A program made the position numbers and the translations under genes. A stretch of DNA of 64,000 nt from Clostridiaceae bacterium. Lineage in GTDB: Bacteria; Bacillota; Clostridia; Saccharofermentanales; Saccharofermentanaceae. Under the pieces are notes generated by a model. It did not search any database. It was given only the letters and a program-made list of their open reading frames with translations, and was not told the DNA's origin. The stretch covers positions 1 to 64,000 of the forward strand of contig JAAYIQ010000002.1 in NCBI GenBank assembly GCA_012523365.1, given 5' to 3'. This document shows, piece after piece, positions 5,263 through 48,369 of the stretch; the stretch's first letter is position 1; every line of letters begins with the position of its first letter.

Positions 5263-6216
5263 TTGATCATCACCGTTTCCAGACAAATGGGCAGTCTCGG
5301 AGATGAGGTTGCCGAAGCGTTGTCCAGCAAACTCAATTGGGAACTGATCACGCGCAGTGACCTGATCATCCGATTTTTTGCGGATGTCACCGACGCGCAA
5401 CAGAAGCACATGCTGAATGAGAGCGCGAAGTATTATCTGACCGAGCTCAAGGGGTACGGAACGTACCGGGATCTTCTGGAACAATCGCTCTATGACCTGG
5501 CCGGTGTTCAGTCCGCCATATTGGTCGGCTTCGGCTCGCAGGTGATTTTCGCCGATGACCCGCAAGCTCTGCATGTGCGGATCGTCGCGCCGGAGCGAAC
5601 ACGGCTCAACCGGGTGCGGAAGCAATTTCATGTGACCGAAGCCGAAGCGGAACAAATCCTCGCCGTGGCCGACAAGAAGCATAAACGTTTTGTATCGACG
5701 GTTTTCGGCGCGGACCTGACCGACATCTCGCATTATCACATCACGCTGAATACGGATAATCTCAGCGTTGATGAATGTGTGACCGCTATTGTGGCTCTTA
5801 AGGATGAGCATGAGTTCCGGAACCGGATCCGTTACGAGAGCGAGGAGGATGAGACAATCGAGCATTTATCCGAAGCGTCTTTGTTCCGAAACCCCTCCGA
5901 AGCGGAGTTCGCCCGTATTCTCGATATGTACCGGATCGAGTGGAAATATGAACCGAAGACCTTTCCGGTCGAGTGGGATGCCGAGGGAAATATCACGCTC
6001 GCGTTCAGCCCGGACTTTTATCTGCCGAAGTTCGACACATATCTTGAGTTGACGACGATGAGTCAGAAATATGTTACCGAGAAGAACCGGAAGCTCAAGC
6101 GGGTCCGGGAACTTTATCCGGGCATCAATATTCGCATCGTGTACAAGAAGGATTTCATATCGCTTCTGGAGCGGTTTAAGTCGGTTGGTAACGGGACTCG
6201 GGAGGACGGGACATGA
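5263..6216 (+). CDS. Cytidylate-kinase-like protein fused to a PD-(D/E)XK-like domain
   Basis: 317 residues. The first ~180 match the cytidylate-kinase-like family: ITVSRQMGSLGDEVAEAL is the modified P-loop (family usual GSGGREIA), followed by the helical lid region with RLNRVRKQF. Residues ~205-305 look like a restriction-endonuclease fold: an acidic helix (FARILDMYRIEW), then SPDFYLP (about 249-255), LELT (about 260-263) and a Lys-rich helix, i.e. the D...ExT variant of D...ExK. Start is TTG at 5263 with AAGGAGAG upstream. The stop overlaps the ATG of the next gene (ATGA), so it is coupled to a divergent hypoxanthine phosphoribosyltransferase. Both domain calls are from motifs by eye; the nuclease call is the weaker. 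Confidence 0.72.
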   Translation: MIITVSRQMGSLGDEVAEALSSKLNWELITRSDLIIRFFADVTDAQQKHMLNESAKYYLTELKGYGTYRDLLEQSLYDLAGVQSAILVGFGSQVIFADDPQALHVRIVAPERTRLNRVRKQFHVTEAEAEQILAVADKKHKRFVSTVFGADLTDISHYHITLNTDNLSVDECVTAIVALKDEHEFRNRIRYESEEDETIEHLSEASLFRNPSEAEFARILDMYRIEWKYEPKTFPVEWDAEGNITLAFSPDFYLPKFDTYLELTTMSQKYVTEKNRKLKRVRELYPGINIRIVYKKDFISLLERFKSVGNGTREDGT

Positions 6217-6746
6217 GTGATTATCCGGCGATACGGCAGATTCTTTTTACGGAAGAAACCCTGCGAAATAAGGTCGCGGAACTCGGCAAGAAGATTTCGG
6301 AGGACTATCGGGATAAAGAACTCGTTCTGATCGCGGTCCTCAAGGGTTCCATGTACTTTTTTGCGGATCTGACGCGCGCGATCGACATCCCCGTCGGAGT
6401 CGATATGATATCCATCGGAAATATTCCGGACACGACGAGCCAGACAGGGATCGTCCGGATTACGAAGGATCTCGACCTGAGCATTACCGGTAAGCATGTT
6501 CTTGTCGTCGAGGATATTATACGAACCGGACTTACCACTGCTTATCTGATCCAGAGCCTGGATGTCAGAAAGCCAATCGATATCAAGGTGTGCACACTGC
6601 TCTATGACCCCGATCGGATGCTGATCAACGTACCGATCGCTTATTACGGCTTCGAGGTCAAAGAATCGTGGATGGTCGGTTACGGTATGGATATCGGCGA
6701 GAAGTGGCGCAATCTTCCGTATATCGGAGAATTGGAACACCGCTGA
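6213..6746 (+). CDS. Divergent hypoxanthine phosphoribosyltransferase paralog
   Basis: 177 residues with the complete type I PRTase outline: VLKGSMYFFADL (pyrophosphate loop), VLVVEDIIRTGLT (PRPP loop, about 97-109) and VGYGMDIGEKWRNL. Two positions that matter for purine transfer differ from normal Hpt. The Asp after EDII (proposed general base in Hpt enzymes, EDxxDT/SG) is Arg here, and the purine-contacting Lys in the later strand (FDKPDR in the second Hpt of this window) is Asp (LYDPDR). PRPP or nucleotide binding may persist while purine salvage is lost or altered. A normal Hpt is encoded at 47830, so this copy is not needed for salvage. It is translationally coupled to the kinase/nuclease-like gene. 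Confidence 0.8.
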   Translation: MSDYPAIRQILFTEETLRNKVAELGKKISEDYRDKELVLIAVLKGSMYFFADLTRAIDIPVGVDMISIGNIPDTTSQTGIVRITKDLDLSITGKHVLVVEDIIRTGLTTAYLIQSLDVRKPIDIKVCTLLYDPDRMLINVPIAYYGFEVKESWMVGYGMDIGEKWRNLPYIGELEHR

Positions 6747-6852: not shown

Positions 6853-6891
6853 TAAAAACGAAGTGCCCGCTTCAAATGAAGCGGGCACTTC
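6853..6891 (-). terminator. Intrinsic terminator of the large ncRNA
   Basis: Perfect stem GAAGUGCCCGCUUC / GAAGCGGGCACUUC with an AUUU loop followed on the minus strand by GUUUUUA. The U-tract is on the minus strand only, so it serves the leftward RNA; it could also help stop rightward transcripts of the Hpt-like gene. Confidence 0.8.
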
Positions 6892-7046
6892 TATCTCCGG
6901 TCCCGAAAAGGGACATAAAGGGGCTCCAGCGAACCTATTTGATACTTCCAATTCTGTCCGGTTGCCCTTTATTATCTGCGAATCTCTATAGCCTGGCTCA
7001 TGAACCGTATCTTGGTGGATTTACTTGGTTCGAACTAATTGTCCTC

Positions 7047-7115
7047 GCCGTTCCATCCTTCCGATTCCGAATCTACTCGGCTCCGACCAAAGTCTTTGCC
7101 TTTCCATCCTTCCGA
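7047..7115 (-). repeat. Two near-identical 18-base elements inside the ncRNA
   Basis: GCCGTTCCATCCTTCCGA (7047-7064) and GCCTTTCCATCCTTCCGA (7098-7115) differ at one base and are 51 bases apart. A looser third copy lies near 7150-7167. In the RNA sense they read UCGGAAGGAUGGAA. They may be equivalent structural modules of the RNA. Confidence 0.6.
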
Positions 7116-7358
7116 CCCAACGGACATCCCGACTTCGACTTTCGCCAACGCGTTCCTTCCTTCAGATCTTGATTCAATTTGCCTTGCCTGCGACTTGTGT
7201 CCGCCTTCGCGTCCCGTCAATCGCTATTCGCTTTCCACGATCTTCCACTCCGACCCGTTCTCTTGATGTAATCTCCTTAACGAACCATCATTGCTTCTGA
7301 TGTGGCGGCACTCCTTCAAGGTACTGGTGTTCTCTAGTATTCCCTGGAGCTTGACTTA

Positions 7359-46226: not shown

Positions 46227-47864
46227 ATGTCTCTTCCTGAGGATTTTCAACGCTTTATTGAGAAGCATCGCCTCGCGGAGTGCGATGTCATTGTGGTCGC
46301 CGTTTCGGGCGGGCCGGATTCGATGTGTCTTCTCGATCTGCTCGTCAATCGGCGGGATAATGCTTCTACTCCGGCTTCCGGCAATTTACGGGAGCGCCCG
46401 ACGATCGTCGCCGCACATCTGAATCACGGCCTTCGAGGCATCGAGGCCGACCGGGATGAGGCCATGGTTCGTGAATACTGTCGGGAACACGAGGTGCCTT
46501 TTTTCTCGCGTCGAGTGGATATTGCCGAAAAAGCGCGCGCGGAAGGACGGGGTTTGGAGGAAGCGGGCCGAGAGGCGCGATACGCTTTTTTTGACGAAGT
46601 GGCGAACACATACGCGAAGGAAGGACGTATCGTCCGGATCGCCGTTGCGCATCGTCGGGAGGATCAGGCCGAAACGATGTTGATCAACTTGTTTCGCGGA
46701 GCCGGGCCGGACGGCCTGTGTTCGATGGAGCCGATCCGCGGACGGGTCATTCGACCGCTTTTATTCGCGGATAAGGCCCGGGTGGATGATTACGTAAGCG
46801 GGCACGATGTTCCGTATGCGATTGACCGGAGTAATTCCGAGAACGAATATACTCGTAATAAGTGGCGGAATGTTGTTCTGCCGATGATCCGCGAGGTATC
46901 GGCCAGAGATCCGGTCGATGCGCTTTTGTCTTTCGGCGAGCTCCTCGGATCCGACCGTGAGTATTTGGACATGTTGGTTTCCGGTATTTTCGAGAAGGAG
47001 AAAACAATCGTTACAACGGGCATTTACGGACTCCCGACACCGCTTCTGCGCGATTTGCATCCATCGCTCTCCTCGAGATTGATCCGGATGCTTTTCGAGG
47101 AAAGCACGGGGGGAAAGACGGATCTGACGAAGGACCTGACAAGGAGAATCACGGAACTGTCATCGAGAGGTAAGGGCGGATGCTCCCTTTCTCTTCCCGG
47201 TGGTTATCACGCGAGAATTCATGACGGAACGCTTTATTTCGAGCGACGGGATCTCCCGTCGAGTCATGACGGGGGTACTGATAATTCGGCAGAAGGGCCC
47301 GCTTTGGAAGCTGTGACGCTTTTCGGAAGAGAATATCTGGTGTTGAAAGAAGAGGTAAAACCGGTCTTTCATCTCCGTCCGGAGATGATCGGCCAAACGG
47401 TCGAAGTGGTATCCGAAGAACACGGAACCCGTTTGTTTTCGGTCGGATTGAAAATCATTGAGAATCCGAATCAGGTGGTTTATAATAATCGGACATGGTA
47501 TTGTCCGGTTCGGGAATTGAGTCGGGTTACGATGCGCGCGGCGGAACCGAAAGATTCGGTCCGGCCTGCCGGAAGCACCGGAAGCAAGGCGCTTCGACGC
47601 TATCTGACTGACCGCAAGGTTCCGGTCGGCATCCGGAAACGACTACTGGTCGCTGTGGATCGGGACTCGATTCTTTGGGTTCCCGGGTTGGTTCATGCCG
47701 AAGGATTCACCGATGAAATCTCTTACGGTCGGTATACCGCCACTGGGGGGTTCGAGAAACTTATCGGCGATAAGAATACTCAAATCGTCAAAGTAACGGT
47801 ACTTATAACCGATAACGAAAGGAGAGTCTATGGCTTATGTTCTCGGACGAGTCCTGATTTCTAA
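46227..47864 (+). CDS. tilS: tRNA(Ile)-lysidine synthase
   Basis: 545 residues from ATG at 46227 behind AAGGAG; the track's longer ORF overlaps dnaB. PP-loop VVAVSGGPDSMCLLDLL (about 23-39), AAHLNHGLRG and HRREDQAETMLINLFRGAG are TilS signatures; the C-terminal ~90 residues match the TilS C-domain. It makes lysidine at C34 of tRNA-Ile(CAT). The last 35 bases overlap the hpt gene in another frame, an overlap seen often for tilS-hpt pairs. Confidence 0.95.
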   Translation: MSLPEDFQRFIEKHRLAECDVIVVAVSGGPDSMCLLDLLVNRRDNASTPASGNLRERPTIVAAHLNHGLRGIEADRDEAMVREYCREHEVPFFSRRVDIAEKARAEGRGLEEAGREARYAFFDEVANTYAKEGRIVRIAVAHRREDQAETMLINLFRGAGPDGLCSMEPIRGRVIRPLLFADKARVDDYVSGHDVPYAIDRSNSENEYTRNKWRNVVLPMIREVSARDPVDALLSFGELLGSDREYLDMLVSGIFEKEKTIVTTGIYGLPTPLLRDLHPSLSSRLIRMLFEESTGGKTDLTKDLTRRITELSSRGKGGCSLSLPGGYHARIHDGTLYFERRDLPSSHDGGTDNSAEGPALEAVTLFGREYLVLKEEVKPVFHLRPEMIGQTVEVVSEEHGTRLFSVGLKIIENPNQVVYNNRTWYCPVRELSRVTMRAAEPKDSVRPAGSTGSKALRRYLTDRKVPVGIRKRLLVAVDRDSILWVPGLVHAEGFTDEISYGRYTATGGFEKLIGDKNTQIVKVTVLITDNERRVYGLCSRTSPDF

Positions 47865-48369
47865 GGACAAAATCGATAAAATGGTCGCCGGTCTGGCGGA
47901 GCGGATATCCCGGGATTACGGCGAAGAAGAGTTGATCGTTGTCGGAATTCTCAAGGGGTCGTTCATTTTCATGGCGGATTTGATTCGCCTTCTCAGACCG
48001 CAGGTTATCATTGACTTCATGTCGGTTTCAAGTTATTACGAGAACACCCGAAGCACGGGTATCGTTAAAATTATCAAGGACATGGACGTGAACATCAACG
48101 GCAAACACGTTCTCATCGTCGAGGATATCGTTGACTCCGGCCTTACGCTCAGCAACCTCAAGGAACTCCTGATGACCAAGGAACCCAAGAGTCTTAAGGT
48201 TTGTGTCGCATTTGACAAGCCGGACAGAAGAAAAACAGAAATTGAAGCGGATTATGTCGGCATGATTATTCCGGACGAGTTTATCGTCGGCTACGGATTG
48301 GATTACGCCGGAAAATACAGAAATTTATCGGATATTCGAATAATGGAACCGGACGGAGGTATCAAATGA
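47830..48369 (+). CDS. hpt: Hypoxanthine phosphoribosyltransferase
   Basis: 179 residues. [17 protein letters not shown] (PPi loop), [14 protein letters not shown] (PRPP loop with the catalytic Asp) and [39 protein letters not shown] with the purine-contact Lys, so all catalytic residues are present, in contrast to the paralog at 6213. It salvages hypoxanthine/guanine. AAAGGAGAG precedes the ATG inside tilS; its stop overlaps the ftsH start. The tilS-hpt-ftsH order is conserved in Bacillota. Confidence 0.96.

Follow-up and report, generated by a model that had tools for sequence, protein, structure and literature searches.

An HPRT-fold paralogue with replaced active-site residues, its kinase-like/nuclease-like partner and a conserved structured RNA candidate in Bacillota

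Two overlapping genes in the window (the whole 64,000-nucleotide stretch of DNA that was analysed) encode KN, a protein with a kinase-like and a nuclease-like part, and Hpt2, a paralogue with the hypoxanthine phosphoribosyltransferase (HPRT) fold; a candidate structured RNA lies convergent with them. Hpt2 is the second Hpt paralogue of the window, additional to a canonical gene in a tilS–hpt–ftsH arrangement. The protein-coding features are as follows.

5263-6216, + strand: KN, with an N-terminal Cytidylate_kin2-like part (aa 1-175) and a C-terminal T7-endonuclease-I-like PD-(D/E)XK part (aa 207-305)
5881-6177, + strand: KN nuclease-like domain, similar at profile level to T7 endonuclease I (3cae, E=1.8e-5)
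6213-6746, + strand: Hpt2, HPRT-fold paralogue of 177 aa, with R104 and D132 at the general-base Asp and purine Lys sites
6522-6524, + strand: R104 codon CGA, at the loop III general-base Asp position (from alignment)
6606-6608, + strand: D132 codon GAC, at the site of the purine-contact Lys (from alignment); most relatives have Asn here
47830-48369: canonical Hpt (D and K present), between tilS and ftsH

The start codon of Hpt2 and the stop codon of the KN gene (5263-6216) share an ATGA overlap. As a whole protein, Hpt2 scored 167.3 bits against the TIGR01203 HGPRTase HMM, above the curated cut-off of 150, and its structure model (pLDDT 92.5) adopts the HPRT fold, with T. tengcongensis HGPRT (2geb; 48% identity) as the best PDB match. 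In B. anthracis Hpt, Asp103 lies within loop III (EDIIDSGLT), Lys131 hydrogen-bonds guanine O6 and Phe152 sits in the base cleft (PMC6783271); these residues correspond, with an offset of one, to R104, D132 and W153 of Hpt2. Hpt2 therefore has Arg in place of the loop III general-base Asp and Asp in place of the Lys that contacts purine O6, residues present in 60/60 solo Hpts in each case. The Asp at 132 is peculiar to the window genome, its relatives having Asn. As a clade, Hpt2 proteins have also exchanged the Ser-Tyr loop SSY for NIP and the stacking Phe for Trp, whereas alignment showed that the PPi loop LKG, the PRPP motif (E100/D101 and TGLT) and the Mg-PPi residues D160 and R166 are retained. 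Hpt2 thus resembles bacterial HPRT (TIGR01203; B. anthracis Hpt-1, 2geb) in fold, PRPP motif, PPi loop, D160 and R166, but differs in the Asp-to-Arg and Lys-to-Asp/Asn replacements, the lost SSY, the Phe-to-Trp change and its obligate KN partner. The sequence-only reading had described an Hpt paralogue with both purine-transfer residues replaced, PRPP and pyrophosphate loops that remain, a canonical Hpt 41 kb away in the window and a start codon overlapping a kinase/nuclease-like gene. All four points held, the first by alignment, profile and model, although the loops that persist in Hpt2 have been lost in a subclade described below. Other phosphoribosyltransferases (PRTases) also lack the general-base Asp, so its loss alone is no proof that Hpt2 is inactive.

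KN begins with a TTG codon preceded by AAGGAGA. Its N-terminal part matched Pfam PF13189 (Cytidylate_kin2) at 98.1 bits, above the gathering threshold of 28, the match to DUF790 was weak and the AF2 model had a pLDDT of 90.7. The P-loop, GxGG(R/K/H), has lost its basic residue: the position is D14 in KN and D/E in 142/167 KN proteins, compared with R/H/K in 19/20 solo Cytidylate_kin2 relatives. Six C-domain residues (E213, D251, E262, T264, K274 and K277) are invariant in 167/167 sequences, so that the acidic metal-binding residues E213, D251 and E262 are all present throughout. In acidic triad and fold, the C-domain is like T7 endonuclease I and the DUF790 PD-(D/E)XK proteins, and it shares with DUF790 a Lys in the next helix; it differs from both in being fused to a kinase-like or HPRT domain and in having Thr rather than Lys in motif III (T264, 167/167), where phage relatives keep ExK. 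Judging from residue patterns only, K274 or K277 could be a migrated motif III Lys. There are precedents in DUF1626, in which the motif III Lys is replaced by Thr with positive residues in the next helix, and in DUF790, in which the Lys has migrated (PMC1913061), and nuclease activity of KN is therefore possible, though not shown. A domain profile search found no winged-helix DNA-binding domain of the PurR type in either Hpt2 or KN.

We surveyed the cassette and the RNA in a Bacillota phylum sample of 399 genomes and in order-level relatives, most of them metagenome assemblies; no description of a KN–Hpt2 cassette was found in the literature searched. Among the order-level relatives, Hpt2 comes after KN wherever the contig is long enough to tell, and 20 further genomes yielded Hpt2 after KN in 18/18 testable loci. 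Apparent cases of KN without Hpt came down to one contig end and one KN gene next to a 100-N scaffold gap, and were rejected. The KN C-domain is patchily distributed across the phylum (39/399 genomes) and the cassette is near-fixed at the family level (30/34). Distances between KN C-domains correlate more closely with those of the linked Hpt (r=0.85) than with those of the solo Hpt (r=0.63). In Thermomicrobium roseum, the protein annotated as hpt (WP_012643103; L243 4944-5945) is an unannotated fusion of a KN C-domain and an Hpt in a single chain, with the motif EDIVNTG, the Lys kept and the kinase-like part absent. Together, the fusion and the distance tracking point to a shared function. Carriage as phage or plasmid cargo was rejected, none being seen except in T. 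roseum; defence genes were not found among the conserved neighbour clusters of the cassette, and PADLOC returned no match of note.

The residue changes are a property of the KN-linked proteins as a group. Cassette-free Hpts have both Asp and Lys in 60/60 records, whereas Bacillota KN-linked records have Lys in 0/159 and Asp in 24/160, a distribution that is not attributable to chance (unless distinct sequences are specified, record counts include duplicates of the same genome). The split is clean among order-level relatives, where 30/30 ordinary Hpts have Asp and Lys and 45 Hpt2s have Arg/Asn at the first position and Asn/Asp/Ser at the second. In a maximum-likelihood tree built without the two diagnostic columns and rooted against ordinary Hpts, including those of E. 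coli, B. subtilis, actinobacteria and fusobacteria, KN-linked Hpts formed one clade (UFB 99/aLRT 98), within which the clade with Arg at 104 was nested (100/99). The deepest Bacillota branches keep Asp and have Val, Ile, Leu, Ala, Arg or Asn in place of Lys; in later branches Asp is replaced by Gly, Asn, His, Lys or Arg. The clade-wide mark of KN-linked Hpts is thus the loss of Lys, not of Asp, and because the deepest branches are KN-linked yet retain Asp, the pairing is older than the Asp loss. A canonical Hpt was found besides the KN-linked one in 36/36 KN-positive phylum genomes searched. Genus-level dN/dS was ~0.04 for Hpt2 and 0.10 for canonical Hpt, rough values with dS near saturation. 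Decay of Hpt2 as a pseudogene was rejected on its dN/dS of ~0.04–0.06, below that of canonical Hpt, with the same caveat about dS.

Most KN-linked members have near-invariant K44, G45, E100, D101, TGLT, D160 and R166, and position 153 is aromatic (W, F or Y) in 141/160. The exception is a subclade with the motif TDIVR[TS]GFT (L329–L334 and L097), in which the PRPP Glu has become Thr, the PPi-loop Gly is Ala or Ser in most members and D160, the Mg/base Asp, is replaced by His, Ser or Ala, while R104, N132 and an intact KN are kept. Its dN/dS of ~0.05 indicates strong purifying selection, and its rate of conservation is about equal to that of active proteins. By inference from its residues, the Hpt of this subclade looks like a conserved pseudo-PRTase, and its conservation despite the lost PRPP, PPi and Mg residues argues that R104 and N132 serve binding or assembly. 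The tree would then trace a route from enzyme to binding protein, with Lys lost, then Asp, then, in one subclade, the PRPP site. The sequence-only reading had proposed phylogeny as a test: whether an EDIIR clade exists and whether it always pairs with the kinase-like gene. The clade exists, and the pairing held in all testable loci, with the scaffold gap as the one exception. Of the two roles that it offered, binding is the one that the TDIVR subclade favours, an inference from sequence alone, and use of another base stays possible in other lineages; the greater age of the pairing and the convergent RNA had been missed.

Downstream of Hpt2 on the opposite strand lie ~490 nt between a promoter and a terminator hairpin that contain no credible gene; the open reading frames listed at 6876-7172 and 7025-7300 fall inside the RNA candidate and are probably spurious. 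Its parts are as follows.

~7352-6860, − strand: structured ncRNA candidate, convergent with Hpt2; both transcript ends are inferred, from the promoter and the terminator
7386-7359, − strand: promoter TTGACA-16-TATAAT with extended TG, conserved in close relatives
7344-7350, − strand: 5′ arm GCUCCAG of the closing helix P1, followed by the box GGAAUAC
7190-7224, − strand: core box GCGAUUGACGGGACGCGAAGGCGGACACAAGUCGC, single copy in the genome
6923-6935, − strand: 3′ box GGUUCG and P1 arm CUGGAGC
6891-6860, − strand: terminator-like 14-bp hairpin with a U-run

The promoter and body are 78–87% conserved in close relatives. The ends GCUCCA(A/G)GGAAU and GGUUCG(C/U)UGGAGC are common to RNAs of 244–622 nt beside cassettes in many families; the RNA mostly lies downstream of the cassette and convergent with it, but families f82, f86, f24 and f65 have it upstream of KN, in divergent orientation. 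The search imposed P1 pairs 1–6, and only other pairs count as covariation evidence. Among 56 distinct sequences, pair 7 was always complementary, as G-C (36) or A-U (20) (0/5000 permutations), and the next pair outward also covaries, as A-U, G-C, C-G or U-A (35/56; 0/5000 permutations), although these tests ignore relatedness; RNAalifold found the closing helix independently. The folding energy of the window's RNA candidate was modestly low and not exceptional (z −1.75). A scan of the window with Rfam covariance models recovered only a tRNA at the gathering threshold and no credible sub-threshold match for the RNA. Identification as RNase P was rejected, as RNase P is located elsewhere, as was identification as tmRNA, for which there was no match; riboswitch control of the cassette was rejected as well, with no Rfam riboswitch by the cassettes scanned. 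A further comparison is with ModT (raiA motif RNA, RF03072), a conserved Bacillota ncRNA often found beside comFC (PMC11706538). The ComF family is PRTase-like. ModT differs from the RNA candidate in its neighbours, and there is no sequence or Rfam match between the two.

Conservation of the RNA is accompanied by co-occurrence with the cassette. The 5′ box was matched in 31/399 phylum genomes and followed by the 3′ box in 13 of the loci read; 13/13 of these two-box RNAs were in KN-positive genomes, and 12 were beside the cassette (in G608 KN is cut by the contig end; in G527 the RNA is unlinked to KN). Several cassettes without an adjacent RNA, those of genus g7, G032 and G703 at the order level and G527 at the phylum level, were in genomes that carry a two-box RNA elsewhere. 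One genome (G042, locus L378) had a 379-nt two-box RNA and no detected KN. In another (G009, locus L342), KN and Hpt2 have been lost while the RNA and the flanking genes remain, and in that RNA both near-invariant boxes are changed and P1 is partly re-paired, as would be expected if the boxes contact the proteins, although this is a single case. Recognisable RNA boxes were found in 0/21 loci of Asp-retaining lineages. Seven Asp-retaining cassettes (L227, L229, L233, L236, L237, L242 and L274) have the box GG(C/U)CUGUUGGAAUCUGG with a U-run on the opposite strand downstream of Hpt, in two copies ~350 nt apart in L236 and L237. Because Asp-retaining lineages carry this other conserved box at the equivalent place, whether the RNA originated at the Asp loss is left undecided.

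The data show the residue changes, the clade of KN-linked Hpts, its pairing with KN and the constraint on Hpt2, as well as the conservation and co-occurrence of the RNA. We propose, with no more confidence for than against, that KN, Hpt2 as a binding module and a structured RNA of ~250–620 nt form an undescribed three-part unit, the mechanism of which is inferred. The HPRT fold in the Hpt2 clade would no longer be a hypoxanthine/guanine transferase and would act as a binding module; KN and Hpt2 would assemble into a complex and bind the RNA together, probably via the near-invariant GGAAU/GGUUCG closing region; and ligands such as PRPP or nucleotides, occupying the former active sites, may tune binding or cutting by the nuclease-like domain. 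Transcription, assembly of a complex, RNA binding, sensing of ligands and any catalysis or cleavage are inferences, none of them demonstrated. The missing boxes in Asp-retaining lineages, the RNA in KN-negative G042 and in cassette-less G009, and the unexceptional folding energy weigh against the proposal. PyrR, a PRTase that binds RNA (PMC7430163), and PurR, a non-catalytic PRTase acting as a sensor (PMC8789054), are precedents for a PRTase fold turned over to RNA binding or to sensing alone. PyrR is like Hpt2 in its PRTase fold and establishes that RNA-binding PRTases exist in Bacillota, but it keeps UPRTase activity and binds short pyr leader hairpins in cis, whereas the Hpt2 system has an HPRT-type protein and a separate RNA of hundreds of nucleotides. 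PurR of Bacillus, like the proposed unit, joins a PRTase domain without transferase activity to a nucleic-acid-binding function; it differs in being XPRT-like, with a winged-helix rather than a nuclease-like domain and no RNA gene. A bolder reading, against which we lean slightly, is a new class of bacterial ribonucleoprotein in which a pseudo-HPRT and a kinase-like/nuclease-like fusion hold the RNA, three former enzyme folds having become ligand-gated RNA- or DNA-handling modules and the nuclease-like site working through a migrated Lys. If the three-part unit is real, a gene annotated as routine purine salvage belongs to an RNA–protein unit present in ~10% of the Bacillota genomes sampled, and a large new RNA comes with a ready list of candidate protein partners. 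There is also a warning that Hpt annotations and HPRT counts include proteins that appear not to serve salvage.

The best-placed rival, possible but not likely, is that Hpt2 is still an enzyme and transfers phosphoribosyl to a different base in a pocket re-tuned by R104/N132; KN would act on the product, and the RNA would be a separate regulator. The near-invariant PRPP and PPi residues of most members and the usual aromatic at 153 favour it; the TDIVR subclade, conserved after losing several of those residues, and the Asp/Glu in place of the KN P-loop basic residue weigh against it. A PurR-like regulator is unlikely; in that reading PRPP or (p)ppGpp would be sensed by the HPRT fold, which would in turn govern how the KN nuclease-like domain binds DNA, and the RNA would be incidental or a target. 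The PurR precedent (PMC8789054) and the binding of ppGpp to HPRT in the same pocket (PMC6783271) support it, but Hpt2 has lost the Lys131-type guanine contact, and an RNA association seen in three different genomic arrangements is difficult to dismiss as incidental. We also doubt a defence or conflict system with the nuclease-like domain as effector and the RNA as guide, scaffold or antidote: the nuclease-like domain, RNA partner and patchy presence in the phylum (39/399) would fit, but near-fixation in the family (30/34), the absence of a PADLOC match of note and of defence neighbours, and the lack of plasmid or phage carriage outside T. roseum do not. That the RNA is a mere syntenic neighbour, unrelated to KN and Hpt2, is very unlikely; its presence in KN-negative G042 and, in altered form, in cassette-less G009 would allow this, but it occurs in two orientations and as unlinked copies almost only in KN-positive genomes, and both boxes are changed in G009, where the cassette is gone. 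Hpt2 does exceed the HGPRTase equivalog cut-off, but the reading of it as an ordinary hypoxanthine phosphoribosyltransferase whose substitutions are tolerated is all but ruled out by the clade-wide changes in two active-site residues, the SSY loop and the stacking Phe and by the canonical Hpt that is always also present.

No conserved neighbours are shared across the phylum, and recurrent flanking genes are confined to the family. In the family flanks (L102–L181), a TIGR01212-like radical SAM gene lies near the cassette in 40/80 loci and a DinP-like gene in 29/80. Three genomes (G044, G279 and G477) carry two copies of the cassette each.
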